Shown here: in pieces, positions 888-26,563 of the stretch
How the letters are laid out: the number at the start of each line of letters is the position of its first letter
Numbering within the stretch: position 1 is the stretch's first letter
DNA from: Leucobacter aridicollis
GTDB lineage: Bacteria; Actinomycetota; Actinomycetes; Actinomycetales; Microbacteriaceae
Length of the DNA stretch: 64,000 bases
Reading direction: 5' to 3'
Assembly: GCF_013409595.1 (NCBI RefSeq)
Contig: NZ_JACCBD010000001.1
Location: forward strand, 3,286,001 to 3,350,000
Notes under the pieces: model-generated
Told to the model about the DNA's origin: nothing
What the model saw: the letters and a program-made list of their open reading frames with translations, nothing else
Databases searched by the model: none
Made by a program: the position numbers and the translations under genes

Positions 888-911
888 AGGGCGGCGCGCC
901 CGCGCCGCCCT
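888..911 (-). terminator. GC-rich hairpin overlapping the lldD stop codon
   Basis: An 11-bp perfect inverted repeat (AGGGCGGCGCG and its complement) with a 2-nt loop overlaps the TAG stop of the lactate dehydrogenase gene. On the minus strand it follows the end of the long leftward operon. No clear U-tract follows, so it could be a terminator or a 3' stabilising stem. Confidence 0.5.
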
Positions 912-2145
912 ACTTGCCGCGCGGGATGAGGCGCTGCAGCTGAGTGACGTGCGCCGGGGTGAGCTCGTCGAGCGTCTTCACCTCGAGCAGCTTCATCGTG
1001 CGCACGATCTGGTCGGAGAGGATCGCAATCATGCGATCGACGCCCTCGCGGCCGCCAGCCATGAGACCGTACAGATACGCTCGCCCGACGAGCGTGAACT
1101 TCGCGCCCATCGCGATCGAGGCGACGATGTCGGCGCCGTTCATGATGCCGGTGTCGATCGCGATCTCGGTGTGGTGCCCGACCTCGCGCGCGACCTCCGG
1201 CAGCAGGTGGAACGGGATCGGCGCGCGGTCGAGCTGACGCCCGCCGTGGTTCGACAGGATGATGCCGTCGACGCCAAGATCAACGAGTTTCTTCGAGTCC
1301 TCGAGGTTCTGCACGCCCTTCACGACGAGTTTGCCGGGCCACATCGAACGGATCACGTCGAGGTCCTCGAACGAGATCGACGGGTCCATCGCTGAGTCGA
1401 GCAGCTCGCCGACGGTTCCGCCCGTGGAGGAGAGCGAGGCGAACTCAAGCTTCTGTGTCGTGAGGAAGTCCCACCACCACCAGGGGCGCGGGATCGCGTT
1501 CGCAATCGTGCCGAGCGAGAGCTGCGGGGGGATCGAGAAGCCGTTGCGGGCGTCGCGCAGCCGCGCGCCGGCAACGGGCGTATCGACGGTGAACATCAGC
1601 GTGTCGAACCCGGCGGCCGCCGCGCGCTCGACGAGGCCGTAGGAGATCTCGCGCTGCCGCATGACGTACAGCTGGAACCAGTTGCGTCCGTTCGGGTTCG
1701 TCGCCTTCACGTCCTCGATCGAGGTGGTGCCGAGCGTCGACAGCGTGAACGGGATCCCGGCCGCGGCGGCTGCGCCGGCCCCGGCGATCTCGCCCTCGGT
1801 CTGCATGAGCCTCGTGAACCCCGTCGGCGCGATCCCGAACGGCATTGCGGACTCGCCGCCGAAGATCTGCGCGCGAGTGTCGACCATCGAGACATCCCGC
1901 AGGATCGACGGATGGAACTCGATGTCCTCAAAGGCCTGACGCGCACGGCTCAGCGAAAGCTCGCCCTCGGCGGAGCCGTCGGTGTAGTCGAACGCGGCCT
2001 TTGGGGTGCGGCGCTTCGCGATGCGCTGCAGATCATAGATCGTCAGCGCGCCGTCGAGGCGGCGCTTCTTGCCGTTGAGCTCAGGCTTCTTGAACTTCAT
2101 GAGATCGAGGATCTCGGTGGGGCGAGGGAACTGTCGCTGGACCAC
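910..2145 (-). CDS. lldD: FMN-dependent L-lactate / alpha-hydroxyacid dehydrogenase
   Basis: A 411-residue protein of the FMN alpha-hydroxyacid dehydrogenase family (TIM barrel), which oxidises L-lactate or related 2-hydroxyacids to the 2-keto acid. The active-site signature SNHGGRQLD, with the catalytic His near residue 300, is intact; so are the flavin-contacting APTGF (about 106-110), QLY (158-160), TVDTP (186-190) and VVKGV (274-278) segments. Length is typical. It is the last gene of the leftward unit, 36 bp after L-fuconate dehydratase copy 1. L-lactate is an end product of the non-phosphorylative fucose route, so a role in feeding that lactate into pyruvate is the simplest reading. Glycolate or mandelate activity cannot be excluded. 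Confidence 0.88.
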
Positions 2146-2175: not shown

Positions 2176-3495
2176 TTGGGGTTAGATGCGGCCGGCAGCC
2201 CGCAACTCCACCCACCCAGCACCATCAGGGAACACCCACCGATCACGCGACTGCGCAACCATCTCAGCACCCGTCCCCGGCAACACCGGAGCAACATAAC
2301 TCCCGTTCACCACCCGCGCCGGCTCAACAAAATGCTCATGCAGATGATCCACAAACTCAACCCGCTTCCACCCAATCTCCCCCGTGAGCGCCGCATAGTC
2401 AAAGAACGAATAATGCTGCACCAACTCACACAGCCCCACACCACCAGCATGCGGACACACCGGCACACCAAACTTCTTCGCCATCACCAGAATCGCGAGA
2501 TTCTCATTCACGCCAGCAACCCGCGTCGAATCCAACTGCAACACGTCAAGCGACCCAGCCTGCAACATCTGCTTAAAGATGATCCGGTTCATCACCGCCT
2601 CACCCGTCGCCACCTTGATCGGCGCCACACCCCGACGAATATCGGCATGCCCCAACACGTCATCAGTGCTCGTGGGCTCCTCAATCCAGAACGGATCAAA
2701 CTCGGCAAGCGCGTTCGTCCACGCGATCGCCTCATCGACCTCCCACCGCTGATTCGCATCAATCGAGATCCGAATCTCTGGCCCCACGGCCTCACGCGCG
2801 AGCCGCATCCGCCGCACGTCGTCCTCCAGGCTCGTCCCAACCTTCAACTTGATCATGTCGTACCCGGCAGCAACGGCCTCCTTCGACAACCGCACAAGCT
2901 TCTCGTCGGAATACCCGAGCCAGCCAGGCGTCGTCGTGTACGCGGGATGCCCATTCGCGGCAAGCTCCGCCAACCGCTCAGCCTTCCCGACCTCACCCGC
3001 ACGCAGAATCTCGAGCGCCTCCTCGGGCGTCAACGCGTTCTGAATGTGCGTGAAATCGATCGCCGAAACAATCTCCTCGGGACTCATCTCCGCAAGCAGC
3101 CGCCACAACGGCTTCCCCTCACGCCTCGCCCGCACATCCCACAACGTGTTGATCACCGCGCCAGCAGCCATCTGCGAGACGCCCTTCTCCGGGCCAAGCC
3201 ACCGCAACTGCGAGTCATGCACGAGCCGCTTCGCCGCGGCCCCCAAATCACTCACCAGGTCATCAAGCTCAAGCCCCACAAGCCGGGCCCCGTAACTCTC
3301 AATCGCTTTCGCAACAATCTCGTTGCCACGACCGGCAGTAAACACGAGACCGTACCCGCGCTCACCATTGTCTGCCTCAAGCACCGCATACGCGGCCGAA
3401 TAATCAGGATCAACATTGACCGCGTCGGAGCCATCAAGCTCAAGCGAAGTAGGAAAGCGCACGTCGTAGCTACGCACCGAAGTAATAACAGGCAT
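2176..3495. repeat. 1.32-kb direct repeat, copy 1 (L-fuconate dehydratase gene)
   Basis: This 1320-bp block is repeated in the same orientation at 19630-20949. Only three base differences are apparent (2644/20098, 3258/20712, 3259/20713). The match starts 6 bp beyond the stop codon and ends at the ATG, with unrelated sequence on both sides. No transposase, terminal inverted repeat or target duplication is visible. Confidence 0.95.
2182..3495 (-). CDS. fucD: L-fuconate dehydratase (enolase superfamily), copy 1
   Basis: A 437-residue enolase-superfamily enzyme predicted to dehydrate L-fuconate to 2-keto-3-deoxy-L-fuconate. The active-site set expected for FucD is present: K216 and K218 in KLKVG, D246 and N248 in DANQRW, E272 in WIEEP, E299 in ATGEA and H349 in PHAGG. 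Each lies about two residues before the position known in Xanthomonas FucD. The second copy at 19636-20949 differs by one residue (Asp79 here, Glu79 there). Codons end mostly in G or T, unlike the C/G-ended codons of neighbours, which suggests acquisition from another lineage. The genes before it (crotonase, 69 bp upstream) and after it (lldD) lie on the same strand, but tandem operator-like repeats in front of it could give it its own promoter. Confidence 0.93.
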   Translation of the reverse strand: MPVITSVRSYDVRFPTSLELDGSDAVNVDPDYSAAYAVLEADNGERGYGLVFTAGRGNEIVAKAIESYGARLVGLELDDLVSDLGAAAKRLVHDSQLRWLGPEKGVSQMAAGAVINTLWDVRARREGKPLWRLLAEMSPEEIVSAIDFTHIQNALTPEEALEILRAGEVGKAERLAELAANGHPAYTTTPGWLGYSDEKLVRLSKEAVAAGYDMIKLKVGTSLEDDVRRMRLAREAVGPEIRISIDANQRWEVDEAIAWTNALAEFDPFWIEEPTSTDDVLGHADIRRGVAPIKVATGEAVMNRIIFKQMLQAGSLDVLQLDSTRVAGVNENLAILVMAKKFGVPVCPHAGGVGLCELVQHYSFFDYAALTGEIGWKRVEFVDHLHEHFVEPARVVNGSYVAPVLPGTGAEMVAQSRDRWVFPDGAGWVELRAAGRI

Positions 3496-3501: not shown

Positions 3502-3533
3502 AATCCTATACGACCTAGCAATTTCCTACACGA
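3502..3533 (-). promoter_or_regulatory. Tandem operator-like repeats upstream of fucD copy 1
   Basis: Two 10-mers, TCCTATACGA (3504-3513) and TCCTACACGA (3524-3533), are spaced exactly 20 bp, about two helical turns, immediately upstream of the dehydratase start. The 9-mer AATCCTATA at 3502-3510 recurs in reverse complement at 24979-24987, in front of the Ldh gene and next to a GntR gene. A shared GntR/FCD operator is inferred. Confidence 0.4.
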
Positions 3534-3564
3534 TTAGTTTCCAGACGATACGCCAGTGCTGAAG

Positions 3565-4371
3565 CTAGCGCCGCGCGAACACCCCGGGCCGCTTCTCAGC
3601 GAACGCCCGCCGCCCCTCGGCAGCGTCTTCGGTGGCAAAGGTGACAGTCTGCAGCTCGCGCTCGAAACGCACGGCCTCTTCCTGCGGCATGTTCGCCGCT
3701 GCGCGCAGGTTCGCCTTCGCCGTCTCCGCAGCAATTGGGGGGCGCGAAGCAATCGTGGCAGCGAGTTCCCTAGCGCGCACCAGTAGCTGACCGGCCGGCA
3801 GAACCTCGGTCACGAGCCCCCAGGCAAGGGCGCGCTCCGCGTCGATGCCATCGCCAGTGAGCAGCATTGTCGCTGCGTTGGACTGCCCGATCGAGGCCGC
3901 CAGGAAGGCGCTCATTCCGCCACCGCCAATCCAGCCGAGCTTGATCTCGGGCGCGGCAAAGCTCGCCGCCTCCGAAGCGAGTCGGATGTCGCACGACAGT
4001 GCTGTCTCGAGCCCGCCGCCCAGGGCGTAGCCATTCACCGCGGCAATGATGGGCTTGCGGCACTCGCGCAGGGCGTCACAGTAATCCCGCCGGTTACGGA
4101 AGCTCCATGGTGTCGCATAGGTGTCCAGGGTGCGGATGTCGCTTCCGGCGCTGAACGCGCGTTCGCCAGCGCCCGTCAGAACAATCGCGCGAACGTCATC
4201 ATCGTCGTTGAGTGCGAAGATGACCCGTTCAAGTTCGGCGCTCATCTCCGGGGTGACGGCGTTCAGCTTCTCCGGCCGGTCGAGGGTGATCGTCGCGACG
4301 TGGCCGTCGAGCTCAAGGCGGATCCGCCCGTCGGGCTGCTCGGCGCCCGGGGCGGGTGTGGAAGAAGTCAT
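3565..4371 (-). CDS. Enoyl-CoA hydratase/isomerase (crotonase) family protein
   Basis: A 268-residue crotonase-fold protein. The oxyanion-hole stretch GAGERAFSAGSD is present. Both glutamates used by enoyl-CoA hydratases can be placed, one in GGGLETALSCDI and one in APEIKLG, so a hydratase rather than only an isomerase is plausible. The start is taken at the ATG at 4371 (MTSSTPAPG), preceded by AAGGA; an upstream extension to 4566 would run into the preceding gene and looks unlike the family. It lies 25 bp after the solute-binding-like gene and follows a CaiB CoA-transferase, so it probably acts on the CoA thioester that CaiB makes. The substrate is unknown. Confidence 0.85.
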   Translation of the reverse strand: MTSSTPAPGAEQPDGRIRLELDGHVATITLDRPEKLNAVTPEMSAELERVIFALNDDDDVRAIVLTGAGERAFSAGSDIRTLDTYATPWSFRNRRDYCDALRECRKPIIAAVNGYALGGGLETALSCDIRLASEAASFAAPEIKLGWIGGGGMSAFLAASIGQSNAATMLLTGDGIDAERALAWGLVTEVLPAGQLLVRARELAATIASRPPIAAETAKANLRAAANMPQEEAVRFERELQTVTFATEDAAEGRRAFAEKRPGVFARR

Positions 4372-4396
4372 CACTGGGTCCTTACTCTGTGTGGGT

Positions 4397-5518
4397 CTAA
4401 CGATGCGCAGGCATTTTGGCGCCCGCGAGGGTGTGCGCGTACTCGCGCTGCACAACGCGCCACGCTCCGGAGGCATCTGAAGCTGCAATGCGGTCACGCA
4501 GGAGCCGCGACGCCGATGCCTGAAACGCGGTGAAGCCGGGCAGCCGCGGGCGCACCCAGGCCTCATTGATGGTGCGCCGGGTCGCTGCGTAGAACTCGCC
4601 CGCCAGTCGGTTGACCTCCGGGTTTGCCCAGGCGGCCCCGCTCGAGGGCTGCCCCGCGTGCTCGGAGATCACGGTGGCCTGGGTCAACGGGTGCATGAGC
4701 CAGGTGAGCATGTCGACAAGCCGCGCGTCGGGCTGAGTACGCGTGGAAATGGCGAGCCCGGTGCCGCCGATGACGGATCCTGTTCGCCCGGCGGGACCCA
4801 CCGGAGCGTTCGCGAACGCGAGCGCTCCGGGCCCTGAAGCGTAATTCACGTACCCGTAGACGAGTGGCACGTACGCAATGTCGCGCTCGTCGCGCATCCG
4901 TTCGAGGAGCCCAATCGGGTTCAGATCCACCGCGCCCGCGGGAGCGGTGCGGGCGAGCTCAATCAGGATCCGTGCCGCTTCACTCCCCACCGCCTCTGAC
5001 ACGAGCAGCTCGGAGCCGTCTACCGCAGGGTCCTCGCCGAGCGCGACACAGATCGACAGGTAGCTCAGGAGCGCGTGCGGGCCGCCGAGGTTCGGCGCAA
5101 CCGGCACACGCTGCGCGAGCTGCAGCACGTCCTCCCATCGCACGGGGGCCTCGGCGACTCGCTCGGGGAGCCGGGCGGACACTTGGGACGCTGCGTCCAG
5201 TGGCAGCGCCCAGGTGCGCCCGCCGACCTCGTAGGAGCGGAGGCTCGGACCCACGGCGTCAGCGGCGATTCGCCTGAGTGCGTCCTCGCCGAGCCAGGCC
5301 TCGACAGGAATCAAAGCCCCGGCGGCGAGTGCGTCTCCAAGGTGTGGGTGATCAAGCACGAGCACGTCATACTGCTCGGCGAGCTCCTCAATCGGGCTCG
5401 CCTCGAACCCCTCGAGCGAGTGCACCTCCCATTCGATGAGTCCCGGCGCCGCGAGCGCGGTCCGCTCAAGCGCCTGACGCCCGCGCGGGTGATCCCAGGT
5501 CAGCCCGCGGTAGGTCAC
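4397..5518 (-). CDS. Solute-binding-protein-like protein without signal peptide
   Basis: A 373-residue protein resembling type-2 periplasmic substrate-binding proteins of sugar ABC importers: an N-terminal RGLTWDHPRG, a YDVLVLDHPHLGDAL segment and a VGGRTWALPLDAASQ hinge-like segment. It has no signal peptide and no lipobox, so it should stay in the cytoplasm. The GTG start overlaps the stop of the CaiB gene (GTGA), with GGTGAGGC in front, so translation is coupled. No permease or ATPase gene of an ABC system adjoins it. A cytoplasmic ligand-sensing, substrate-buffering or unrecognised catalytic role is possible; the family resemblance is judged by eye. Its place between a CoA-transferase and a crotonase is the main clue. 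Confidence 0.65.
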   Translation of the reverse strand: MTYRGLTWDHPRGRQALERTALAAPGLIEWEVHSLEGFEASPIEELAEQYDVLVLDHPHLGDALAAGALIPVEAWLGEDALRRIAADAVGPSLRSYEVGGRTWALPLDAASQVSARLPERVAEAPVRWEDVLQLAQRVPVAPNLGGPHALLSYLSICVALGEDPAVDGSELLVSEAVGSEAARILIELARTAPAGAVDLNPIGLLERMRDERDIAYVPLVYGYVNYASGPGALAFANAPVGPAGRTGSVIGGTGLAISTRTQPDARLVDMLTWLMHPLTQATVISEHAGQPSSGAAWANPEVNRLAGEFYAATRRTINEAWVRPRLPGFTAFQASASRLLRDRIAASDASGAWRVVQREYAHTLAGAKMPAHR

Positions 5519-6774
5519 GCCTCACCGCCGCGACGGTACGGAGCGGACGGCCGCGCCGCACTGGGCTCAAGCACAGTTTCCGCGACAGCGCCGTCCGCAA
5601 TGAGCGCGTCGATCCTGTCGGCTGCGAGTCCGGCCTCGAGCAGGATCTCGCGCGAGTGCTCTCCGACAAGCGGCGCTCCTCGCGTAATCCGCGGCGGCGT
5701 GCGGTTGAAGCGGTACGGAAAGCCGGGGGTACGGACGGTGCCCTCGGTGGGGTGCTCGTACTCGACGAAGGTGCCGTTGTGGGCGACCTGCGGGTCGTTG
5801 ACCAGCTCCTCATAGCCGTAGACGGGGCCCACCCAGATGCCCGCGGCGCCGAGCTTTTCGAGCCAGTGGGCGGTCGTCTCCCGGATCAGTCGATCTTGCA
5901 CGCCACGGTACAGCTCATCGCGCTTGCTCCATCCCTCAACCTCGCCCGTCCAGCCCACGAACCCGGTTTCTCCGATGAGCTCGCCGAGCGTCTCGGGCTC
6001 GGCGAACGCGAGCGCAATGAATCCGTCCGCTGTCGCAAAGATGCCGTAGGGCGCGCGAATATAGCTGTGCGCGTGGGGCTCCGCCGAGCGCGCCTGCGCC
6101 ACTCCGCCGACCGTGTGCACCGACAGCTCTTGCATCTGCAGCGTCGTCACTGCGTCGAGCATGTTCACCGTGACAAGCTGCCCCTCCCCTGTTCGCTCAC
6201 GGTGCAGAAGTGCAGCGAGCACACCTTCGAAGGCGGTCGACGCGGTGATCGCGTCGGCGAGGAATTGGCCGGCGGGAGTCGGCGGCTCGCCCTCGCGACC
6301 GGCGGACAGCAGCGCGCCGCTCATCGCCTGCAGCAACAAGTCCTGGCCAGGCCGGTCGCGGTACGGGCCATCCTCGCCGTAGCCTGAAATCGACACGTAG
6401 ACGATGTTCGGGTTAACCGCGCGAAGTGACTCATAGTCCACTCCGAGCCGCGCAGCGACTCCCGGCCGGTAATTCTGCAGGAACACATCAGCTTCGGCCA
6501 CAAGCGCGAGTAGCGCGTCTCGTCCGTCGTCGGCCTTGAGGTCGAGCGCCACCGATCGCTTGTTGCGATTCAGCGAGAGAAACGAGACGTTGATCTTGTT
6601 TCCGGGTGCGCCCCCGGCCGCGGTGTGGCGCTGCCACTCACCCCTCGTCGGTTCGACCTTGATGACGTCGGCGCCGAGATCGCCGAGCCGCTGAGCAGCG
6701 AATGGGCCGGCCATGGCGATCGAACAGTCGAGCACACGGTAGCCAGCAAGGACCGCTGGCGCGGGGGTGGTCAT
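5515..6774 (-). CDS. CaiB/BaiF family (class III) CoA-transferase
   Basis: A 419-residue family III CoA-transferase, transferring CoA between an acyl-CoA and a carboxylic acid. Family hallmarks: the N-terminal YRVLDCSIAMAGPFAAQRL segment, GADVIKVEP (about 34-42), the SLNRNKRSVALDLK stretch (about 67-80), and an Asp near 174 in GQFLADAITAS that fits the catalytic aspartate. Length is normal. Its stop overlaps the next gene by 4 bp, and it lies 52 bp after the Gfo/Idh gene. Typical members activate carnitine, oxalate, formate, succinate or bile acids; here it more likely activates a sugar-derived acid made by the upstream enolase-superfamily and Gfo/Idh enzymes, which is inference. Confidence 0.88.
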   Translation of the reverse strand: MTTPAPAVLAGYRVLDCSIAMAGPFAAQRLGDLGADVIKVEPTRGEWQRHTAAGGAPGNKINVSFLSLNRNKRSVALDLKADDGRDALLALVAEADVFLQNYRPGVAARLGVDYESLRAVNPNIVYVSISGYGEDGPYRDRPGQDLLLQAMSGALLSAGREGEPPTPAGQFLADAITASTAFEGVLAALLHRERTGEGQLVTVNMLDAVTTLQMQELSVHTVGGVAQARSAEPHAHSYIRAPYGIFATADGFIALAFAEPETLGELIGETGFVGWTGEVEGWSKRDELYRGVQDRLIRETTAHWLEKLGAAGIWVGPVYGYEELVNDPQVAHNGTFVEYEHPTEGTVRTPGFPYRFNRTPPRITRGAPLVGEHSREILLEAGLAADRIDALIADGAVAETVLEPSAARPSAPYRRGGEA

Positions 6775-6826
6775 GGTCAGGTTCCTCCGGAGTTGGTGGG
6801 TGGGTGAGCGCGTCGGCCGTGCGTGG

Positions 6827-8874: not shown

Positions 8875-8876
8875 CG

Positions 8877-10028: not shown

Positions 10029-10062
10029 ATCGTCCTTGATGTTGCTCGATGAAACTTAACAT

Positions 10063-10117
10063 ACATCATACGACTTATAAGTGAATTTGGCGAGCCGCGC
10101 CCGTCTTGCGTCATACG
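10063..10117. promoter_or_regulatory. Divergent control region with TCATACG sites and a palindrome
   Basis: Between the divergent enolase-superfamily and GntR genes lie ACATCATACG (10063-10072), the 10-bp perfect palindrome ACTTATAAGT (10073-10082) and TCATACG again (10111-10117). ACATCATACG recurs at 16430-16439 upstream of the sugar-binding lipoprotein. Read on the minus strand the site contains TATGAT, so it may overlap a -10 element. Control by the adjacent GntR protein is inferred. Confidence 0.45.
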
Positions 10118-10144
10118 TCGCACCTTTATCGCTAGACTCGCCCC

Positions 10145-10906: not shown

Positions 10907-10947
10907 CACCCCGCCGGGAGCTGACAATGGCCGAGCGCGAGCGGAAA

Positions 10948-12809: not shown

Positions 12810-13147
12810 GCCAACTCCATCTCTCGCCACCCTGTCACACCGGCGACCGCTCCAAACGGGACCTGGCAAGGCCCGGTGTGTGCCCACCATTCCTGACTCG
12901 TCTTGTCCGCCTGCACGCGCGCCATATCGCGCTCGTAGTCGTCACCCACATAGTCGTATACGCCAAATAGCGTGTCGTCGGCGATGAAAATCGAGTAGTT
13001 TCTCAGCCCGTTCTCGTGCATGGCCGCTTCAACCCGAGGCCAGACGGCCCGGTGAAGCGCTAGGTACTCGGCCCGCTTCTCGGGTCGCACGTTCACGACA
13101 AACCCGAACCGCCTCGCAGCCCCATCCCGCACAGCGTATCCGCTCAT
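12794..13147 (-). CDS. L-rhamnose mutarotase family protein (probable L-fucose mutarotase)
   Basis: A 117-residue protein of the small dimeric L-rhamnose mutarotase family (DUF718). Recognisable segments are FVVNVRPEKRAEYLALHRAVWP, the NYSIFI strand and the WWAHTGPCQVP tail. Members interconvert sugar anomers so that the correct form reaches the dehydrogenase. The start overlaps the permease stop by 4 bp (ATGA), and the lactonase gene begins inside its 3' end. A second member lies at 27414-27737 in the other fucoside operon. L-fucose is the likely substrate from context. Confidence 0.87.
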   Translation of the reverse strand: MSGYAVRDGAARRFGFVVNVRPEKRAEYLALHRAVWPRVEAAMHENGLRNYSIFIADDTLFGVYDYVGDDYERDMARVQADKTSQEWWAHTGPCQVPFGAVAGVTGWREMELAWHMD

Positions 13148-16369: not shown

Positions 16370-16429
16370 GTCGGTCCTTTGCTGGTCGACGTCGTTGACG
16401 ACTAATGTTCCGGTCGGAATAAAGTTATT

Positions 16430-16439: not shown

Positions 16440-16487
16440 TGTGACCTTAAGCACAAGCGCCGACGCAGCATGTACCCTAACCGGGTA

Positions 16488-16535: not shown

Positions 16536-16572
16536 ACTCTATTTGGTGGCAGTTCAATAACTGCCCATCCAG

Positions 16573-17820: not shown

Positions 17821-18576
17821 CTACGCCGTGGGCCGCAGCCGGAGTCCGTCCATACCGCCATCGACAGCGAGTGCGGTACCCGTCGTTGACCCGGCAAGCG
17901 GGCTCGCCAGGTATGCGACCGCTGCTGCGACCTCCTCCGGCTGGACGAGCCGCAGGTGCGGCTGGCGCGCCTCGAGCGCCGCGCGCTCCGCCACGGGATC
18001 CGGCGCCGAGTCGAGCAGGCGCTGCACCCACGGCGTGTTTGCCGTGCCTGGATTCACGCAGTTCACCCGGATGCCCTCCCGGAGATGGTCGGCCGCCATC
18101 TGCAGCGTGAGCGAGTACACGGCCCCCTTGGATGCACCGTACAGCGCGCGCTCGGGAAGCCCGGCGGTTACGGCGATCGACGCAGTGTTCACGATCGCGG
18201 CTGCCGGCGACTTGCGGAGCCACGGCAGCGCGGCGCGTGACACTCGCACGAGCCCGAGCACGTTGATGTTGAGCACCCGCTGCCACTCGGCGTCGTCGTT
18301 CGTCTCGATGGTGCCCTGTGCACCGACGCCGGCGTTGTTGACGACGATATCGATGCGGCCAAAGCGCTCCGCCACAGCCTGAATGCCGGCGTTCACGCTG
18401 TCGGTGTCGGCGATGTCGACACGCACGGCGAACACGCCGTCGGGTACGTTCTCGGTGTTCAGGTCAAACACGACCGCCTCGGCGCCGCCGGCGCGAAACC
18501 TGTCGACGATCGCCGCGCCGATCCCGGAAGCCCCACCCGTGACGATCGCGACAAGTCCGTCAAACTCTCCGCTCAT
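17821..18576 (-). CDS. SDR oxidoreductase, probable 2-keto-3-deoxy-L-fuconate dehydrogenase
   Basis: A 251-residue classical short-chain dehydrogenase. It has the cofactor loop VTGGASGIG (about 12-20), NNAGVG, the catalytic Ser in VNTASIA and YGASK with Tyr and Lys. An Asp at the end of the second strand (VVFDLN) suggests NAD rather than NADP. Its ATG overlaps the stop of the FAH hydrolase gene by one base (TGATG). In the known pathway this enzyme oxidises C4 of 2-keto-3-deoxy-L-fuconate, yielding the 2,4-diketo acid cleaved by the neighbouring hydrolase. Assignment rests on this pairing. Confidence 0.83.
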   Translation of the reverse strand: MSGEFDGLVAIVTGGASGIGAAIVDRFRAGGAEAVVFDLNTENVPDGVFAVRVDIADTDSVNAGIQAVAERFGRIDIVVNNAGVGAQGTIETNDDAEWQRVLNINVLGLVRVSRAALPWLRKSPAAAIVNTASIAVTAGLPERALYGASKGAVYSLTLQMAADHLREGIRVNCVNPGTANTPWVQRLLDSAPDPVAERAALEARQPHLRLVQPEEVAAAVAYLASPLAGSTTGTALAVDGGMDGLRLRPTA

Positions 18577-19433
18577 CAGTTCGCCTCCTCGTACGCGACG
18601 TACTCCTGGCGCTGGCCACCGAGGCCGTCGATCGACACCTCGACCACGTCACCCGCCGCGAGGTAGGGGAAGCGGCCCGAGAGCGCGACGCCCTCGGGTG
18701 TACCGGTGAGCACGAGATCGCCGGGCTCGAGCACCATGTACTGGCTGAGCTCGTGCACGATGTGCGCGATGCTGAAGATCATGTCGGCGGTGGTCGAGTC
18801 CTGCCGCGTCTCACCGTTCACGCTGCTGCGCAGTCGCACGTTCTGCGCGTCGATCTCGTCGCGGGTAACGAGCCACGGGCCGGTCGGCGAGAACCCGGGG
18901 GCGGACTTGCCCTTGCCCCACTGGCCGCCCGACAGCTCGATCTGCCAAGTGCGCTCGGACAGGTCGTTCACGACGACGTAGCCCGCGATGTAGTCCTCTG
19001 CCGCTTCGAGCGACTCGATGTAGCTCGCGCGCTTCCCGATGACGATGCCGAGCTCGACCTCCCAGTCGGTCTTAACGCTCCCCTTCGGAATGACGACGAC
19101 ATCGTTCGGCCCAACCACGGTGTTCGGCAGCTTGTTGAAGATGACCATGTTCTCGGGCGGCGCCGAACCCGACTCGGCCGCGTGCGCGGCGTAGTTCATG
19201 CCGACGCACACGAGCGCCGACGGACGTGCGATCGGGGAACCGATGCGCATCTCGGCGGCGCCATCGAGCACGGGCAGCTCGCCGGCGTCGAGCAGACGCT
19301 GCGCTTCGGCGATCCCCGATTCGAGGAATGCGCCGTCGATCTTCGCGGTGACTGCGCGCAGATCGTACGTGGCCGAGTCGGTCACGAGGGCGGGTATTTC
19401 AGCCCCAATGGGACCAAGCTGGGCGAACTTCAT
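18576..19433 (-). CDS. FAH-family hydrolase, probable 2,4-diketo-3-deoxy-L-fuconate hydrolase
   Basis: A 285-residue fumarylacetoacetate hydrolase-family enzyme. Metal ligands are seen in DWEVELGIVIGK (ExE) and in VVNDLSER (Asp), with a conserved Lys in WGKGKSAPGFSP; VGMNYAAHAAE is typical of the group. The group includes the 2,4-diketo-3-deoxy-L-rhamnonate/fuconate hydrolase that cleaves its substrate to pyruvate and L-lactate, which fits its one-base overlap with the SDR gene. The 202-bp upstream gap carries a 15-bp direct repeat, so this gene may head its own transcript rather than depend only on the dehydratase promoter. Confidence 0.85.
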   Translation of the reverse strand: MKFAQLGPIGAEIPALVTDSATYDLRAVTAKIDGAFLESGIAEAQRLLDAGELPVLDGAAEMRIGSPIARPSALVCVGMNYAAHAAESGSAPPENMVIFNKLPNTVVGPNDVVVIPKGSVKTDWEVELGIVIGKRASYIESLEAAEDYIAGYVVVNDLSERTWQIELSGGQWGKGKSAPGFSPTGPWLVTRDEIDAQNVRLRSSVNGETRQDSTTADMIFSIAHIVHELSQYMVLEPGDLVLTGTPEGVALSGRFPYLAAGDVVEVSIDGLGGQRQEYVAYEEAN

Positions 19434-19452: not shown

Positions 19453-19552
19453 AAGGTGGGATGTTTGGTTACACACTAGCGCCTTTTTGTGGCGGAGTCT
19501 CCGATTTGTCGCCAGGTTAGCCGCCTCGCCTCAAGTCAAGGTGGGATCTTTG
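19453..19552. promoter_or_regulatory. 15-bp direct repeats in the gap upstream of the FAH/SDR pair
   Basis: AAGGTGGGATGTTTG (19453-19467) and AAGGTGGGATCTTTG (19538-19552) differ by one base and are 85 bp apart, about eight helical turns. They lie in the gap between L-fuconate dehydratase copy 2 and the FAH hydrolase gene. A regulator binding two sites across a DNA loop is a possible reading. The rest of 19434-19635 shows no gene. Confidence 0.4.
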
Positions 19553-19629
19553 TGAGCGCCCTGGGAGCCGGGGTGCTACTGATTCGAACGAACTAGCAAG
19601 AAGCTTTCGTCCGGACGGCGTTGTTCCCG

Positions 19630-20949
19630 TTGGGGTTAGATGCGGCCGGCAGCCCGCAACTCCACCCACCCAGCACCATCAGGGAACACCCACCGATCAC
19701 GCGACTGCGCAACCATCTCAGCACCCGTCCCCGGCAACACCGGAGCAACATAACTCCCGTTCACCACCCGCGCCGGCTCAACAAAATGCTCATGCAGATG
19801 ATCCACAAACTCAACCCGCTTCCACCCAATCTCCCCCGTGAGCGCCGCATAGTCAAAGAACGAATAATGCTGCACCAACTCACACAGCCCCACACCACCA
19901 GCATGCGGACACACCGGCACACCAAACTTCTTCGCCATCACCAGAATCGCGAGATTCTCATTCACGCCAGCAACCCGCGTCGAATCCAACTGCAACACGT
20001 CAAGCGACCCAGCCTGCAACATCTGCTTAAAGATGATCCGGTTCATCACCGCCTCACCCGTCGCCACCTTGATCGGCGCCACACCCCGACGAATATCAGC
20101 ATGCCCCAACACGTCATCAGTGCTCGTGGGCTCCTCAATCCAGAACGGATCAAACTCGGCAAGCGCGTTCGTCCACGCGATCGCCTCATCGACCTCCCAC
20201 CGCTGATTCGCATCAATCGAGATCCGAATCTCTGGCCCCACGGCCTCACGCGCGAGCCGCATCCGCCGCACGTCGTCCTCCAGGCTCGTCCCAACCTTCA
20301 ACTTGATCATGTCGTACCCGGCAGCAACGGCCTCCTTCGACAACCGCACAAGCTTCTCGTCGGAATACCCGAGCCAGCCAGGCGTCGTCGTGTACGCGGG
20401 ATGCCCATTCGCGGCAAGCTCCGCCAACCGCTCAGCCTTCCCGACCTCACCCGCACGCAGAATCTCGAGCGCCTCCTCGGGCGTCAACGCGTTCTGAATG
20501 TGCGTGAAATCGATCGCCGAAACAATCTCCTCGGGACTCATCTCCGCAAGCAGCCGCCACAACGGCTTCCCCTCACGCCTCGCCCGCACATCCCACAACG
20601 TGTTGATCACCGCGCCAGCAGCCATCTGCGAGACGCCCTTCTCCGGGCCAAGCCACCGCAACTGCGAGTCATGCACGAGCCGCTTCGCCGCGGCCCCCAA
20701 ATCACTCACCAACTCATCAAGCTCAAGCCCCACAAGCCGGGCCCCGTAACTCTCAATCGCTTTCGCAACAATCTCGTTGCCACGACCGGCAGTAAACACG
20801 AGACCGTACCCGCGCTCACCATTGTCTGCCTCAAGCACCGCATACGCGGCCGAATAATCAGGATCAACATTGACCGCGTCGGAGCCATCAAGCTCAAGCG
20901 AAGTAGGAAAGCGCACGTCGTAGCTACGCACCGAAGTAATAACAGGCAT
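19630..20949. repeat. 1.32-kb direct repeat, copy 2 (L-fuconate dehydratase gene)
   Basis: Second copy of the 1320-bp block at 2176-3495, same orientation, offset 17454 bp, with three visible base differences. Flanks differ from copy 1 on both sides, so only the coding sequence plus 6 bp beyond the stop was copied or homogenised. Confidence 0.95.
19636..20949 (-). CDS. fucD: L-fuconate dehydratase (enolase superfamily), copy 2
   Basis: A 437-residue enzyme identical to copy 1 except Glu79 for Asp79; the catalytic residues K216, K218, D246, N248, E272, E299 and H349 are unchanged. This copy stands beside the two later enzymes of the pathway (FAH hydrolase and SDR), so it is the one in natural pathway order. 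It lies downstream of a TRAP transporter, from which a strong hairpin separates it. GCAGAGAGG in front of the ATG provides a purine-rich ribosome site unlike that of copy 1. The same G/T-ended codon use sets it apart from its neighbours. Confidence 0.93.
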   Translation of the reverse strand: MPVITSVRSYDVRFPTSLELDGSDAVNVDPDYSAAYAVLEADNGERGYGLVFTAGRGNEIVAKAIESYGARLVGLELDELVSDLGAAAKRLVHDSQLRWLGPEKGVSQMAAGAVINTLWDVRARREGKPLWRLLAEMSPEEIVSAIDFTHIQNALTPEEALEILRAGEVGKAERLAELAANGHPAYTTTPGWLGYSDEKLVRLSKEAVAAGYDMIKLKVGTSLEDDVRRMRLAREAVGPEIRISIDANQRWEVDEAIAWTNALAEFDPFWIEEPTSTDDVLGHADIRRGVAPIKVATGEAVMNRIIFKQMLQAGSLDVLQLDSTRVAGVNENLAILVMAKKFGVPVCPHAGGVGLCELVQHYSFFDYAALTGEIGWKRVEFVDHLHEHFVEPARVVNGSYVAPVLPGTGAEMVAQSRDRWVFPDGAGWVELRAAGRI

Positions 20950-20973
20950 TAGAGACCTCTCTGCAGAAGGGAT

Positions 20974-21002
20974 AGAGAGCCGGGCCGGGGGCCCGGCTCT
21001 CT
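20974..21002 (-). terminator. Strong hairpin between TRAP genes and fucD copy 2
   Basis: A 13-bp perfect stem (AGAGAGCCGGGCC with its complement) and a GGG loop lie just after the dctM stop and before the dehydratase start. There is no U-tract on the minus strand, so it may be a partial terminator or an mRNA-stabilising/processing stem inside one long transcript. Confidence 0.55.
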
Positions 21003-21014
21003 AGTGAGGAATAA

Positions 21015-22295
21015 CTAGACAAAACCCAAGAGCCCTGGCAACCAGAGGCTTAACGCGGGGACCAAGGTAATGAGGACCAGGGTGATGAGCATCGGAATGA
21101 AGAATGGCAAGACCCCACGGATGACTGTTGCTACCGGTGCACCTGTCACGCTCGAGAGCACGAACAAGACGAGCCCCACCGGAGGCGTGATCAGGCCAAT
21201 AACCAGGTTGAAGATCACCATGACCCCAAACTGCACGGGACTTATCCCAAAGGCCTCAGCGACAGGACCGAGAACCGGCACGAGAATGAGAATCGCTGCT
21301 GTCGGTTCGAGAACACATCCGACGATGAGCAGCAATACATTGACGAGCAACAGGAAGACCCACGGGCTATCCGTGAAGTTCAGAATGAAGTCTGCTGCGA
21401 TCTGAGGCGCCTGCTCCCTCGCAAGTACCCAGCCAAACAGAGCCGCGGCGGCGACAATCAACAGGACTGACCCCGCCGTCTCAACAGACGAGAGCAACAT
21501 CCGCCAGATCTTTCGGGGGCTTAGTGCGCGGTAGCAGAGCGAGAGAACGAAGATATACAGCACACCAATGCCCGAGGCCTCGGTTGGTGTGAAGATCCCC
21601 GACAGGATTCCACCGAGAATGATGACTCCTGCGCCGGCCGCCGGCAGCGCGCCAAGGGCGGTTCGGCCGCGCTCCTTCCAGCTCGCTTTCGGCAGCCGGA
21701 GGGATTCATCCTTTCGGGTAAGGAACCAGACGAGACCACATAGAGCGGCAATCAGCACCAATGCGGGTACAAGGCCAGCCATGAAAAGCGCACCGACGGA
21801 AACGCCAGCCGTGACTGCGTAAATAATCGCTGGAATACTCGGCGGAATCATCGGGGCGATCAATGACGAGGCCGCTGTAACTCCAAGACTGAATTCTTGA
21901 CTGTAACCGCGCTTGATCATTGCCGGCACCTGAACCTTGCCCATTGCGGCCGCATCGGCGATCGCCGCGCCGCTCATCCAGGAGAAGCCGAAACTCGTGG
22001 CCACATTCACATAGCCCAAGCTCCCGCGAATATGCCCGAGGAACGCTACACCCGCGTTGTAAAGGCGATCGGAAATACCTGACTCGTTTGCAAGATTTCC
22101 AAGCAGAATGAACAGTGGCACCGCGAGCAGGGCGAAGTCGTTCACACCTGAGGTGATCTGCTGGACTGCAATGGAGAAGTTTGCAGTGGGTTCAAGCCAA
22201 ACATATATCAGTGCCGGCGCCAGCAGCGAGATTGCCACAGGTACCCGGAACGCTAGCAGCACGAGCAGGCCGCCCAACATGATTACGAGGGTCAC
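21015..22295 (-). CDS. dctM: TRAP transporter large permease DctM
   Basis: A 426-residue, very hydrophobic protein with about 12 helices and typical DctM features: LGNLANESGISDRLYNAG, the GFSWMSGAAIADAAAMG stretch and a PPSIPAIIYAV loop. It forms the transport channel of a tripartite ATP-independent (sodium-driven) importer of acidic substrates. It overlaps the dctQ gene by 4 bp. In this setting the likely cargo is a sugar acid such as L-fuconate, or lactate. Confidence 0.93.
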   Translation of the reverse strand: MTLVIMLGGLLVLLAFRVPVAISLLAPALIYVWLEPTANFSIAVQQITSGVNDFALLAVPLFILLGNLANESGISDRLYNAGVAFLGHIRGSLGYVNVATSFGFSWMSGAAIADAAAMGKVQVPAMIKRGYSQEFSLGVTAASSLIAPMIPPSIPAIIYAVTAGVSVGALFMAGLVPALVLIAALCGLVWFLTRKDESLRLPKASWKERGRTALGALPAAGAGVIILGGILSGIFTPTEASGIGVLYIFVLSLCYRALSPRKIWRMLLSSVETAGSVLLIVAAAALFGWVLAREQAPQIAADFILNFTDSPWVFLLLVNVLLLIVGCVLEPTAAILILVPVLGPVAEAFGISPVQFGVMVIFNLVIGLITPPVGLVLFVLSSVTGAPVATVIRGVLPFFIPMLITLVLITLVPALSLWLPGLLGFV

Positions 22296-22855
22296 TCGCT
22301 CACTCCTTCCGGCCCTGCAGCCACTGTGCTCCGTTTGCGGGCTTGCGCCATGTCAAATCCGGAATTGAGCACACCGTGAATAAAAATCAACGCAAACCCG
22401 ACTGCGGCTGCACCGTAGACCACGCTCATGGGAAGCTGTGTGGCGGGCGCTTTGATCGCGCTCGCAAGCACAGCGAACTGTGCGCCCGCCACCGCGAGAA
22501 CTCCTGAGACGATCAGTACGACCACGATGGCAATGCCGTTCACAATCCGTTCTCCGACCTTGCCGAGTGCCTTCGCGAGGATATCCACCGCGATGTGCTG
22601 GCGACGTGCCATAACAAAACCTGCCCCTAGGAACGCAAGCCACACCAGGGAGAATCGTGCGAGCTCTTCTGTCCAGGTCAAGGGGCTATGGAATACGTAA
22701 CGGCTCACGACCTGCAGCAGAACCAACGAGAATGTAGCGACGAGCGCAAGGCTCGAGAGGGCGCGTTCGGCACCAACAAGCCACCGAACTACCCGGCTTG
22801 AACGTTCGAGTTCGTCTAGCTCGTCCGGCGGGACCGTAACAAGTGCCTCACTCAC
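22292..22855 (-). CDS. dctQ: TRAP transporter small permease DctQ
   Basis: A 187-residue protein with four membrane helices and the conserved FSLVWLAFLGAGFVMARRQHI segment of the DctQ family. It partners DctM, overlapping it by 4 bp, and overlaps the binding-protein gene by 4 bp as well. The N- and C-terminal tails are hydrophilic and charged. Confidence 0.9.
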   Translation of the reverse strand: MSEALVTVPPDELDELERSSRVVRWLVGAERALSSLALVATFSLVLLQVVSRYVFHSPLTWTEELARFSLVWLAFLGAGFVMARRQHIAVDILAKALGKVGERIVNGIAIVVVLIVSGVLAVAGAQFAVLASAIKAPATQLPMSVVYGAAAVGFALIFIHGVLNSGFDMAQARKRSTVAAGPEGVSE

Positions 22856-23862
22856 TTGCCGGCCCGAATGTCAGAGTACAGCTCGCCCCAAACCGGGTTC
22901 TTCGAAAACTCGGAAACTGCGGCCTTTGCAAACTCATCTCGCTTCACGGCGTCGTTGATGGCAATCGACCCGTCCGACGACCACGTCGCGATGATCTCAG
23001 ATTCCTGGGTCTCGACACACTCCTGGACTGCCGCAGCTGCAGACTCAAGCGCAGCCGTGAAACTTGCATTCTGCTCTGCGCTCAACCGGTTCCCGAGTGA
23101 TTCCTGAGTCGTGAGGAACACGCCCTGAACCATGTGCCCGGTGAGATTGACGACCTTCTGGACTTCGTTGAGCTTCGCGGTAGCGATTGTCGGCAACGGA
23201 TTCTCCTGCGCCTCAATCACCCCTTGCTGTAGCCCGAGATACACCTCGCTCAGTGCCATAGGCGTCGCCGTTCCGCCCATGACTTCGGTGTTCTTCAAGT
23301 ACATCGGTGCATCCGGAGTACGAATTTTCAAGCCCTTCATGTCGGCCGGCGAGGAGATCTCCTTGTTCGCGGTCACGTGGCGCGTGCCGTAGTACCAGCC
23401 AGACTGCACGCGTAGTCCACTCTGGGACGCAAGTTCGTCGAATACGCCTGCCATCAGGTCGCTGTTCAACGTGCTGTTGAAGTGCTCGACGTCGTCAAAA
23501 AGGTAGGCAGCGTCGAATACCGCAGCTGGCTCGTACCAGGTGCCCAGGAACGAAGAGCCGGCAACAGCGATATCGAGCGCCCCCGTCGCAACTTGCTCGA
23601 GGGCTTCGGCTTCGCTACCAAGCTGTGCTGCGGGGAAACTCTTCACCGTGATCCCGCTGCCGTCCAGTTCGTCCTGCAGGGTCTTCACGCCACAGGTTTC
23701 GACAGGGTGGGCTGCCTCGTACACATGGGCTAGCCGGAGCGTGACGTCGCCGTCGCCTCCAGCACCGTTTGACGCGGGGGCGCCACTGCAACCAGCAAGT
23801 GCGAGCGCGGCCGCGGCGCCGAGCGCAGCGATCCCAACGAGGCGAGTCTTCTGGGTATTCAT
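22852..23862 (-). CDS. dctP: TRAP transporter substrate-binding lipoprotein DctP
   Basis: A 336-residue DctP-family receptor. The signal peptide ends in the lipobox ALAGC (Cys25), so it is membrane anchored, as expected in a Gram-positive cell. The family features include EIGGQ-like KSFPAAQLGSEAEALEQV, the KGLKIRTPDAPMY segment, which contains the conserved Arg that binds the substrate carboxylate, and ALSEVYLGLQQGVIEAQENP. The conserved Arg points to an acidic ligand. The gene follows the Ldh-type dehydrogenase by 56 bp and begins the three-gene transporter. Confidence 0.92.
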   Translation of the reverse strand: MNTQKTRLVGIAALGAAAALALAGCSGAPASNGAGGDGDVTLRLAHVYEAAHPVETCGVKTLQDELDGSGITVKSFPAAQLGSEAEALEQVATGALDIAVAGSSFLGTWYEPAAVFDAAYLFDDVEHFNSTLNSDLMAGVFDELASQSGLRVQSGWYYGTRHVTANKEISSPADMKGLKIRTPDAPMYLKNTEVMGGTATPMALSEVYLGLQQGVIEAQENPLPTIATAKLNEVQKVVNLTGHMVQGVFLTTQESLGNRLSAEQNASFTAALESAAAAVQECVETQESEIIATWSSDGSIAINDAVKRDEFAKAAVSEFSKNPVWGELYSDIRAGK

Positions 23863-23918
23863 TCCGGTTCTCCTTCGAACGTGCGCGCACCGTGCGCGCG
23901 GATGACAACGTGAGTGAT

Positions 23919-24956
23919 TTACAGGGGGTTGGGCAGTTCGATGTCGAGTCTCTTTCCGAGCTCTCGGAGATCGTCGACCACGCTTTCGGACAGCGGGACG
24001 GTCATCCCGTTCTCGCGAGCACGTTCCCGCTCAGGATCTCCGGGGGCGAGCACGTCGCCTCCCGGAGCCGATCGCCTGATGGCTCCCAGCAATTCAGAGG
24101 TTCGATTCCGAGCGTGCTCACGGCCCGAGAAGAAGCTGGGGTCGATCGCCAAGATGAGCTGGCCGATGTTCATTCGGGAGGCTGGGTTCGACCAAATGTC
24201 CTCAGTTTCGAACGCAAAGGTTCCGGCCCCCAGGATTGCCGAGAACGCTTCGACTGCTGCGGAGATAGCAGACCCCTTGTGCCCGCCGAACGGCGTCAGC
24301 GCGCCGGCCATCGCAGCCACAGGATCGGTTGTGGGCGAACCATTCGGATCCACCGCCCAACCCGCGGGGATCGACTCGCCTGCGTTGCGCGCCGCGATGA
24401 CTTTCCCGTAGGCACCGGTGCTTGTCGCGAGGTCAGCGACAAGTCTGTCTTCCGCTTCGCCTGGTGCCGCAAGGGTGATCGGGTTCGTGCCAAAGACTTT
24501 GTCTCCCCCTCCAAACGGCGCGACTACCGGGCCGGTGGTGGAGGTGACGATGGCGAGCATCCCTGCATCCACGACCTGATCAGCCCAGAACGATCCGGCT
24601 CCGTAGTGACTGCCGCCCTGTACAGCAACGGCCGCAACACCGTGAGCCGCAGCCAGGTCGATTACGCGTTCCGTCGCCTGCTGCATGGCGACTTGTCCGA
24701 GAGCAGCGTCAGCTTCAAGAAGCGCCGTCGCACCCTGCTCGGAGACCCAACGTATTGCCGGCCGGGTGTTGATTCCGCCCCGCTCAACTGCTGAAACGTA
24801 GAGGGGCAACCGGAGCAGGCCATGCGAGTGCGTTCCTCGGCAATCAGCTTCCACCAGGCTCCGGGCAGTTAGCACCGCGTCGGCGTGAGCGATTCCCACG
24901 GAGCGGAGTGCGCTGGCACCAAACTCGATCATTGCATCGCCATTGAAGCGGAACAT
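23919..24956 (-). CDS. Ldh/MDH type-2 family NAD(P)-dependent dehydrogenase
   Basis: A 345-residue member of the malate/L-lactate dehydrogenase-2 family (not the classical LDH fold). The family signature CRGTHSHGLLRLPLY with its conserved His, the DAALGQVAM loop, VQGGSHYGAGSFW and GGHKGSAIS are present. Members reduce or oxidise 2-keto/2-hydroxy acids such as lactate, sulfolactate, malate or 2,3-diketogulonate. It heads the leftward TRAP operon and is divergent from a GntR gene, with a palindromic site in between. It may oxidise the acid imported by the TRAP system. Confidence 0.87.
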   Translation of the reverse strand: MFRFNGDAMIEFGASALRSVGIAHADAVLTARSLVEADCRGTHSHGLLRLPLYVSAVERGGINTRPAIRWVSEQGATALLEADAALGQVAMQQATERVIDLAAAHGVAAVAVQGGSHYGAGSFWADQVVDAGMLAIVTSTTGPVVAPFGGGDKVFGTNPITLAAPGEAEDRLVADLATSTGAYGKVIAARNAGESIPAGWAVDPNGSPTTDPVAAMAGALTPFGGHKGSAISAAVEAFSAILGAGTFAFETEDIWSNPASRMNIGQLILAIDPSFFSGREHARNRTSELLGAIRRSAPGGDVLAPGDPERERARENGMTVPLSESVVDDLRELGKRLDIELPNPL

Positions 24957-24976
24957 CTCTACCTCACCGTTGAAGA

Positions 24977-25004
24977 AATATAGGATTGAGCGAAATGCTA
25001 TATT
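24977..25004. promoter_or_regulatory. Inverted repeat in the Ldh/GntR divergent region
   Basis: AATATAG (24977-24983) and its complement CTATATT (24998-25004) are separated by 14 bp, with a 21-bp centre-to-centre distance. TATAGGATT (24979-24987) overlaps the left arm and recurs in front of fucD copy 1. This A/T-rich patch likely holds both the Ldh promoter and the operator of the adjacent GntR/FCD regulator. Confidence 0.45.
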
Positions 25005-25116
25005 CTTTTCGCGAATTCGGCAAACCTACCTACTCCGATCCACGGCGTGTCCTTTCGCGCAACGGGTCGATAGTCTGCATTCACGACGACTGAGTTCTGG
25101 AACCAAAGGAGGGGCC

Positions 25117-25854
25117 GTGCTGGAACAAGCGAGCACATCGCCCGAAGAAGCGGCCGGGGCTGCGACAGTGTACGAGCGGATTCGATCGAAGATCTTGCGC
25201 AACGAGATTCCCCCCGACACCAGGCTCAGTATCGATGGCCTGGCCAGGGAGGTTGGCACCTCACCCACGCCGATCCGTGAAGCGCTTCGCCACCTTCAAG
25301 GGGACAACCTCGTCGTGCAAGAACCGGGTCGCGGGTATCGTTCGACTCCCCTGCTGAATCAACGTGAGCTCCGGGAGCTGTTCGAGTTCCGTTTGCTCGT
25401 TGAACCATGGGCGACAAAAGCCGCCGCACAGGATCGCCTGAGCAACCCGACGCTCACACTTGAACGTGAGCTCGACGAACTTACCGAACTCATCGCAGCA
25501 AAGGCGGATGTCAGATATGACCTGATGGATCACGACATCCGGTTTCATGATGCGATCTTTGCCGCCGCTGACAACGAGGTTCTCCACGCTGCCTACTCAC
25601 AGCGCCACTGTCACCTGCACGCGTTCCGAATGTTCCCCAACGACTACAACGGCAGTTACACTGTCGCCGAGCATCGTGCCGTGCTCAACGCGATCAAAGC
25701 CCACGATCAGGAAGCCGCAGAGCAAGCCATGCGGGACCACCTCACGGCGGCATATCTCCGGTTCGAACGCGGCCACAAGTCGACGGACGGTCCACCTCGG
25801 CTTCCAGGGCTTCACCCTGATCGACCGGCGCACCGAGCACGCTTGACGGGCTAA
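25117..25854 (+). CDS. GntR/FCD transcriptional regulator A (paralogue pair)
   Basis: A 245-residue regulator. The start is GTG 25117 (MLEQASTSPEE), preceded by AAAGGAGG 4-5 nt away; an in-frame ATG at 24943 would overlap the divergent Ldh gene and is rejected. The winged helix spans about residues 15-85 (LAREVGTSPTPIREALRHLQGDNLV). The FCD domain carries DHDIRFHDAI, CHLHAFR, AEHRAVLNA and MRDHL, with the Asp/His set for a metal-bound acid ligand. The protein at 26663-27400 has the same length and matches over most of its span. Divergence from the Ldh-TRAP operon suggests it controls that operon. Confidence 0.9.
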   Translation: MLEQASTSPEEAAGAATVYERIRSKILRNEIPPDTRLSIDGLAREVGTSPTPIREALRHLQGDNLVVQEPGRGYRSTPLLNQRELRELFEFRLLVEPWATKAAAQDRLSNPTLTLERELDELTELIAAKADVRYDLMDHDIRFHDAIFAAADNEVLHAAYSQRHCHLHAFRMFPNDYNGSYTVAEHRAVLNAIKAHDQEAAEQAMRDHLTAAYLRFERGHKSTDGPPRLPGLHPDRPAHRARLTG

Positions 25855-25879
25855 AGCCAGCCGCCGGATGTACCTGCGG

Positions 25880-26563
25880 CTACCCCGGCTGCGTCCCGGC
25901 CTCCCGCAGCCAGCTCTCGATCCCCGCGATGTGCGCGGTCATGAGGGCCGCGGCGAGCTCCGAGTCGCCCGAGGCGATGGCGCGCGCGATCTCACGGTGC
26001 TCCGAGATTGTCCGGCCCGTCGCGCCGTCCTGCGTGAGCGCACGCCAGACCCTGGCGCGCACGGTGTGGGCCGCGAGCGACTCCACGAGGCTCGATAGGT
26101 AGCCGTTGCCGACGGCGGCGACGATCGCGCGGTGAAAGTCCGAGTCGTGCTGCACGAGGGCGTCGGCGTCGGTCTCTTCGCTCACGCCCGCGACCTCGCG
26201 CTCGAGCGCCGCGAGCGCGTCGGCATCCATGGCGCGAGCCGCCTGCGCGGCGGCCTGCGGTTCGAGCATGCGCCGCACGGCGAACATCTCCAGCACGGAA
26301 TCATCGCTGTGGAGGTCTGCCGCGAAGTTCATCACCTCGAGCAGCATGCTCGGTTCAAGGCTCGTCACGTACGTCCCGTCGCCACGGCGCACGTCGAGCA
26401 CTCGGATCACCTCGAGGGCCTTCACCGCCTCGCGGAGCGAGTTCCGGGAGGCGCCAAGCAGCTCGCCGAGTTCCTTCTCCGGGGGCAACCTATCGCCCGG
26501 CGCGAGATCCCCGGTCCGGATCATTTCCTTGATGCGAGAAATCACATCGTCAGTGACTGCCAT
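25880..26563 (-). CDS. GntR/FCD transcriptional regulator B
   Basis: A 227-residue FadR-type regulator: winged helix at about 5-75 (PPEKELGELLGASRNSLREAV, wing RRGDGTYV) and an FCD domain with HDSDFHRAIV, SEHREIARAI and MTAHI. It belongs to a different branch from the two GntR genes around it. It is convergent with one (26-bp gap) and divergent from the other (99-bp gap). Its targets are not evident; the 26564-26662 gap would be the place for autoregulation. Confidence 0.88.
   Translation of the reverse strand: MAVTDDVISRIKEMIRTGDLAPGDRLPPEKELGELLGASRNSLREAVKALEVIRVLDVRRGDGTYVTSLEPSMLLEVMNFAADLHSDDSVLEMFAVRRMLEPQAAAQAARAMDADALAALEREVAGVSEETDADALVQHDSDFHRAIVAAVGNGYLSSLVESLAAHTVRARVWRALTQDGATGRTISEHREIARAIASGDSELAAALMTAHIAGIESWLREAGTQPG

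Follow-up and report, generated by a model that had tools for sequence, protein, structure and literature searches.

The genome of Leucobacter aridicollis (G000) contains two nearly identical genes, fucD_A and fucD_B, whose product looks like L-fuconate dehydratase. All positions refer to the window, the whole stretch of 64,000 nucleotides that was analysed. The fucD_A gene lies at a locus shared with other Leucobacter genomes, including the two closest relatives (G019 and G003); fucD_B is the last gene of a TRAP transporter operon that is missing from both. These comparisons suggest that fucD_B is a recent copy of the native gene inside an imported operon, and that the operon's own fucD was most likely overwritten by ectopic recombination with fucD_A (probability about 0.6). 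What the comparisons show directly is the synteny of fucD_A, the presence and absence of the segment around fucD_B, the order of the operon elsewhere, the mismatch between the histories of fucD and the transporter, and the A-type 3' flank in fucD_B. The features are listed below, with the basis of each call in brackets.

910..2145, minus strand: lldD-like FMN-dependent dehydrogenase gene, downstream of fucD_A (family profiles)
2176..3495, unstranded: repeat copy A, the coding sequence plus 6 bp (repeat comparison)
2182..3495, minus strand: fucD_A, native predicted L-fuconate dehydratase gene (repeat, synteny, structure match)
3504..3533, minus strand: two TCGTRTAGGA motifs 5' of fucD_A, present in G019 and G003 as well (alignment)
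17821..18576, minus strand: native SDR-family dehydrogenase gene (profile and relatives)
18576..19433, minus strand: native FAH-family hydrolase gene (profile and relatives)
19467..25898, unstranded: segment of about 6.4 kb absent from G019 and G003, ends approximate (genome comparison)
19630..20949, unstranded: repeat copy B, the coding sequence plus 6 bp (repeat comparison)
19636..20949, minus strand: fucD_B, copy in the TRAP operon slot (repeat, operon order, tree)
20973..21003, minus strand: strong hairpin between DctM and fucD_B (folding, z -3.7)
21015..22295, minus strand: DctM, TRAP large permease (family profile)
22292..22855, minus strand: DctQ, TRAP small permease (family profile)
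22852..23862, minus strand: DctP, TRAP solute-binding protein (family profile)
23919..24956, minus strand: Ldh2-type (malate/L-lactate) dehydrogenase (family profile)
24943..25854, plus strand: GntR/FCD regulator belonging to the segment, the real start probably being more internal (family profile)
25880..26563, minus strand: GntR3, native GntR/FCD regulator flanking the segment (profile and relatives)

The repeat pair and its two loci

Comparison of the direct repeats (2176-3495 and 19630-20949, offset 17454 bp) showed 3 mismatches in 1320 bp, located at 2644/20098, 3258/20712, and 3259/20713, the last two being adjacent. The near-identical duplicate with three differing bases described in the initial annotation was therefore confirmed, as were its clean edges: the identity begins at the ATG and stops 6 bp beyond the TAA stop. 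The flanks of the two copies are unrelated, which bears out the claim that neighbouring genes are not duplicated, and segmental or tandem duplication was dropped for this reason. Only two matches to the repeat were found genome-wide (a single contig of 3,573,416 bases), with no third copy, and no further repeat families were reported in the window (minimum 40 nt, seed 20). Pfam or NCBIfam searches with 23 distinct ORFs, all from the first 26.6 kb, identified neither a transposase nor an integrase; one of these ORFs (4397-5518) has no Pfam match. Inverted repeats and target-site duplications were likewise not seen at the ends. The absence of transposon signs thus holds for the scanned part, and copying by a transposon or insertion sequence was dropped. 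The segment ends share a 9-bp inverted match, short enough for chance, and the window contains no tRNA genes.

The fucD product has 437 residues. Residues 3-435 align to residues 3-437 of the L-fuconate dehydratase 2hxt (E 4.7e-176), and this enzyme of the enolase superfamily (PDB 2hxt, 1yey) is matched over nearly the full length. The KLKVG, DANQRW, EEPT, and PHAGG motifs, which we take to be the catalytic motifs of L-fuconate dehydratase, are all present in the 2hxt alignment, as read by eye. No NCBIfam model was matched at its cut-off. The protein shows no notable difference from 2hxt and 1yey; the unusual feature is the third-position composition of the gene. The sole residue difference between the copies is D79 in A and E79 in B. 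The lldD-like product is an FMN-dependent dehydrogenase whose best NCBIfam match, L-lactate dehydrogenase, falls below cut-off, as does the match of a fuconolactonase-like protein nearby. According to known family roles, these two neighbours, together with the SDR and FAH proteins, would fit a predicted fuconate pathway to pyruvate and lactate. A literature search pairing Leucobacter with fuconate found no paper.

In three other Leucobacter genomes (G019, G003, and G035), fucD is a single gene adjoining the lldD-like gene, which indicates that fucD_A is the native gene. Copy number in related genomes had been proposed as a check, and both copies were found only in G000. Collinearity of the locus extends across both flanks in G003, and in G019 across lldD and the 5' region. 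G019 and G003 have also retained the sequence 5' of fucD_A and the CCCCAA that follows its stop; G035 has not. Over 1314 bp, fucD_A differs from its counterparts in G019, G003, and G035 at 61, 135, and 303 positions; the two copies differ from each other at 3, against 58-61, 135, and 303-305 for the pair and these relatives. The recent copying that had been suggested is therefore borne out. If rates are even, the last identity between A and B would date to about 5% of the time since the split from G019.

A 14.2-kb block (3542-17760), which lies between SDR and fucD_A, is present in G000 and G003 but missing from G019. It contains an ABC transporter, an aldo-keto reductase, the fuconolactonase-like gene, a second enolase-superfamily gene, and others. 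The initial annotation had also pointed to excision of the 17.45-kb segment between the repeats. Such excision is physically possible; however, comparison with relatives gave no sign of it, and the block missing from G019 has other breakpoints. Repeat-mediated excision was therefore dropped.

The locus of fucD_B is organized differently. In G019 and G003 the FAH and GntR3 genes are only about 150 bp apart, and the segment is missing. Among 54 Leucobacter genomes, G000 alone has both its DctM and its Ldh2; the next-best matches in the 53 others are 46% and 51% identical, respectively. The GC3 of the five segment genes (DctM, DctQ, DctP, Ldh2, and GntR) is 0.63-0.72, compared with 0.84-0.91 in lldD, SDR, FAH, and GntR3; the 14.2-kb block is intermediate (0.70-0.83). 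The low GC3 and the absence from relatives fit import of the segment, and loss in the relatives would be less simple.

The suggestion that the promoters of the two copies diverge did not hold. The 5' regions are unrelated: that of A is kept in G019 and G003, and that of B lies behind DctM of the apparently imported operon. Judged from position, A and B may be practically one enzyme under two controls, A with the lldD-like gene and B with the TRAP operon. A ribosome-binding-like AGAGAGG (by eye) stands just before the ATG of fucD_B, and the gap between DctM and fucD_B is 65 bp, with the hairpin inside. The 3' arm of this hairpin, CUCUCU, could pair with the AGAGAG before the ATG (by eye). A coupling switch between DctM and fucD_B was considered, and is unsupported by the fold of a shortened leader. 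A GTGGGATSTTTG motif occurs twice before FAH (19456-19467 and 19541-19552), as possible regulator sites. G019 has a similar pair between FAH and GntR3, as does G003 with a less exact match, though the sequence between is unrelated.

The operon in other genomes and the history of its genes

In G000 the order Ldh2-DctP-DctQ-DctM-fucD runs on one strand, with fucD_B in the last slot. The best 80 of 232 fucD loci, some of them short, were surveyed for this arrangement. The full order was found on one strand in 14 of these loci, and DctP-DctQ-DctM-fucD in 16; a 17th is cut off at DctM. In 15 of the 16 loci (L048 left out), 20-67 bp separate the stop of DctM from the start of fucD. The operons in other genomes carry their own, diverged fucD. 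Relatives of DctP (E up to 1e-60) occur in 8 of 299 genomes of the family, G000 included, the others being 36-39% identical; relatives of DctM (E up to 1e-150) occur in 8 of 396 genomes of the order, again including G000. The operons of Arthrobacter, Nesterenkonia, Nocardiopsis, and the plasmid pCdes1 have the same gene order as that of G000; however, their fucD genes belong to other lineages, whereas the G000 operon holds a native Leucobacter fucD.

The plasmid pCdes1 of Corynebacterium deserti (L133, NZ_CP009221.1) is 31 kb long and typed mobilizable. It is a plausible vehicle for the operon. Among the 20 records listed of the 374 in the plasmid search, most had the dehydratase alone, and TRAP genes were found in pCdes1 only. 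No match to the DctP patterns was found in viral contigs. In pCdes1, the Ldh2-TRAP-fucD genes are followed by aldehyde dehydrogenase, FAH, GntR, SDR, and FAH genes.

The histories of DctP and fucD were compared using 12 pairs of rows drawn from the best 120 DctP and the best 120 fucD matches. G000 was excluded, and rows were paired by eye as one contig when longest-contig size and source were equal. The identity of fucD rises with that of DctP (slope 0.62, residual sd 2.2; 66 non-independent pairs from the 12 contigs). Against this regression, fucD is below the DctP-based prediction in 9 of 12 contigs, which means that the fit has an offset in addition to its scatter. Between G000 and contig 12526, DctP is 81.0% identical, and fucD is predicted at 88.3% and observed at 82.4%. 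For contig 32239 the corresponding values are 66.6%, 79.5%, and 87.0%. The order of nearness of the two contigs is thus reversed between DctP and fucD.

The trees give the same result. In the DctP tree, G000 and P0005 of contig 12526 belong to one group of six rows (96/96), and P0010 of contig 32239 is outside. In the fucD tree, A and B share a group of seven rows with G019 and G003 (100/98), the lldD-locus clade; the module fucD of contig 12526 (P0137) lies outside the wider group (98/97). An AU test rejected the placement of A and B with P0137 and P0139 (p-AU 0.0009), a group chosen once the first tree was known. The history of fucD_B, by both trees and regression, is not that of the transporter in whose operon it stands; on sequence grounds, the gene follows the native fucD lineage. 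The opposite case, in which a module fucD overwrote the native gene, was dropped, given the AU test and the grouping of both copies with the lldD-locus genes of G019 and G003. The pair from contig 32239, P0136 (fucD, 87%) and P0010 (DctP, 67%), also stands out, with a fucD much nearer to Leucobacter than DctP predicts. P0136 could possibly be a second swap; its windowed identity shows no clear mosaic.

Origin of the copy in the operon

The lineage would have gained the 6.4-kb TRAP operon (GntR, Ldh2-DctP-DctQ-DctM-fucD) beside the native FAH and SDR genes. The imported operon would have ended in its own diverged fucD, as is normal elsewhere. This gene would then have been overwritten through ectopic homologous recombination (gene conversion), with fucD_A as the donor. 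The tract would run from the ATG to 6-7 bp beyond the stop, roughly matching the extent of homology between the two loci; one end may have joined by a short match, given the 6-7 bp of A flank. We infer overwriting rather than insertion, and recombination as its route. The clean repeat edges correspond to the limits of the homology that two fucD genes would share when their surroundings are unrelated; the edge at the start of the coding sequence fits conversion, since a resident ATG would be shared by both genes. The foreign fucD said to be overwritten was not seen in G000, and its only possible trace is residue Q108. Two further points stand against overwriting. The 6-7 bp past the stop are beyond the homology of the coding sequences, and plain conversion would not copy them. 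The 65-bp gap with its hairpin is long for a spacing that ranges from 20 to 67 bp in relatives.

The direction of copying may be read from the flank. The CCCCAA beyond the stop of B is the sequence of locus A in G019 and G003, so that B carries 6-7 bases of the A 3' flank, which argues for copying from A to B. Wherever the copies differ (three sites), B agrees with G019, and the changes therefore seem to have occurred in A; B and G019 also agree at the 7th base beyond the stop. Against 12 close native sequences, residue 108 is the only one unique to A and B: both have Q, whereas all 12 have H. Q108 also occurs in P0137 and P0139, which are the nearest two of the module-type proteins, and the six other near relatives that were compared have H. 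This is a single site; the Q may descend from the operon's own fucD and have passed to A later, or the match may be due to chance.

Among the alternatives, the fresh insertion of a CDS-sized native fucD copy into a TRAP segment without fucD, by template switching or short-match joining, has a real but clearly smaller probability. It would account for the A-type flank beyond the stop and for the long hairpin gap before B; however, the ATG would have landed by chance behind AGAGAGG in the usual fucD slot. Joining is further limited in that Ku was not found in any of four genomes searched (4/4, with a control positive in 1/14). Ku end joining is therefore disfavoured, and was dropped (0/4 genomes). 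Import of the whole segment from a strain of the same species complex, in which a native-type fucD had already been swapped in, seems somewhat less probable again. The agreement of B with G019 at the four sites above favours such a finished import, as does E79 of B, which is also found in P0123 and P0126. Q108, common to both copies, speaks against it, and every one of the 58 differences between B and G019 is shared by A, so that A and B are nearest to each other.

The two remaining rivals carry little weight. An ancient duplication, homogenised throughout by gene conversion as in tuf genes, would explain why the identity ends at the ends of the coding sequence while the flanks are unrelated. 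It is very improbable, as B is known from one genome and a single recent copying explains the three differences. An assembly artefact is extremely unlikely: the genome is one contig, the flanks of B are distinct, the copies differ at three bases, and A is collinear with relatives. Chi-like motifs were considered as a cause and dropped, as they showed no clear excess; GCTGGTGG occurs once, against 0.16 in synonymous shuffles (sd 0.38), and five other patterns are within about 1 sd.

The third positions of the fucD coding sequence have an unusual composition (A 0.01, C 0.18, G 0.53, T 0.28). In a codon survey of 325 ORFs from the window and 20 sampled stretches (464 kb, with a codon-position filter), G3+T3 is 0.81 and 0.82 in the two copies, and at most 0.63 in the other 323 (median 0.46, sd 0.056 for all 325). 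The G3+T3 of fucD is also 0.81 in G019 and 0.79 in G003, whereas G035 lacks the anomaly, and none of the best 80 of 232 fucD loci is above 0.56. The anomaly runs along the whole coding sequence and is limited to it. Recent third-position changes that separate B from G019, with G003 used for polarisation, comprise 15 T>C, 7 C>T, and 7 unresolved. This slight lean back to C suggests a past event, not a bias still at work. An antisense gene within fucD was dropped, since third positions almost free of A would explain the open antisense frame (by eye). The literature matches listed for third-position asymmetry include no title about a single bacterial gene.

The coding strand of fucD has a G+T content of 0.635 over 1314 nt, and no other 1314-nt window of the sample exceeds 0.604. 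RecA prefers GT-rich strands. The GT-rich coding sequence might conceivably be a recombination-prone cassette, copied whole into related slots, which would explain both the duplicate and the codon anomaly; this idea is considered quite improbable.

Comparison with known gene conversion systems

The fucD pair appears to be a clear natural case of an imported operon with the host version of one gene, in which the swap is confined to the coding sequence. Foreign operons may be fitted to the host gene by gene, and an operon should not be treated as one unit in trees. The pair might also be used to study ectopic recombination in an actinobacterium that is not a model organism. The third-position anomaly is that of a single gene and is common to three species (G000, G019, and G003).

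One of the closest known parallels is the tufA/tufB pair of Salmonella, two nearly identical coding sequences (1185 nt, 12 differences) in different contexts (PMC5485169). The fucD pair is similar in length, near identity, and separate contexts. In the model presented there, tuf gene conversion is unable to pass the repeat ends (PMC5485169); for genes in unrelated contexts, such ends would be the ends of the coding sequence. Long-lasting concerted evolution in prokaryotes has been described for 26 genes, recurring across species (PMC6053082), and the word dehydratase is absent from the main text of that paper. As in those cases, the fucD paralogs are more alike than the orthologs, synonymous sites included. 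The fucD identity is likewise limited to the coding sequence, with an overshoot of 6-7 bp. However, tuf pairs are old and common to many species (PMC5485169), and the cases of PMC6053082 recur across species, whereas the two fucD loci occur together in one genome only, fucD_B lying in a segment known from that genome. The proposed process, ectopic gene conversion between paralogs, is of a known kind; what is new is a native gene, itself with a codon anomaly, in the slot of an apparently imported operon.
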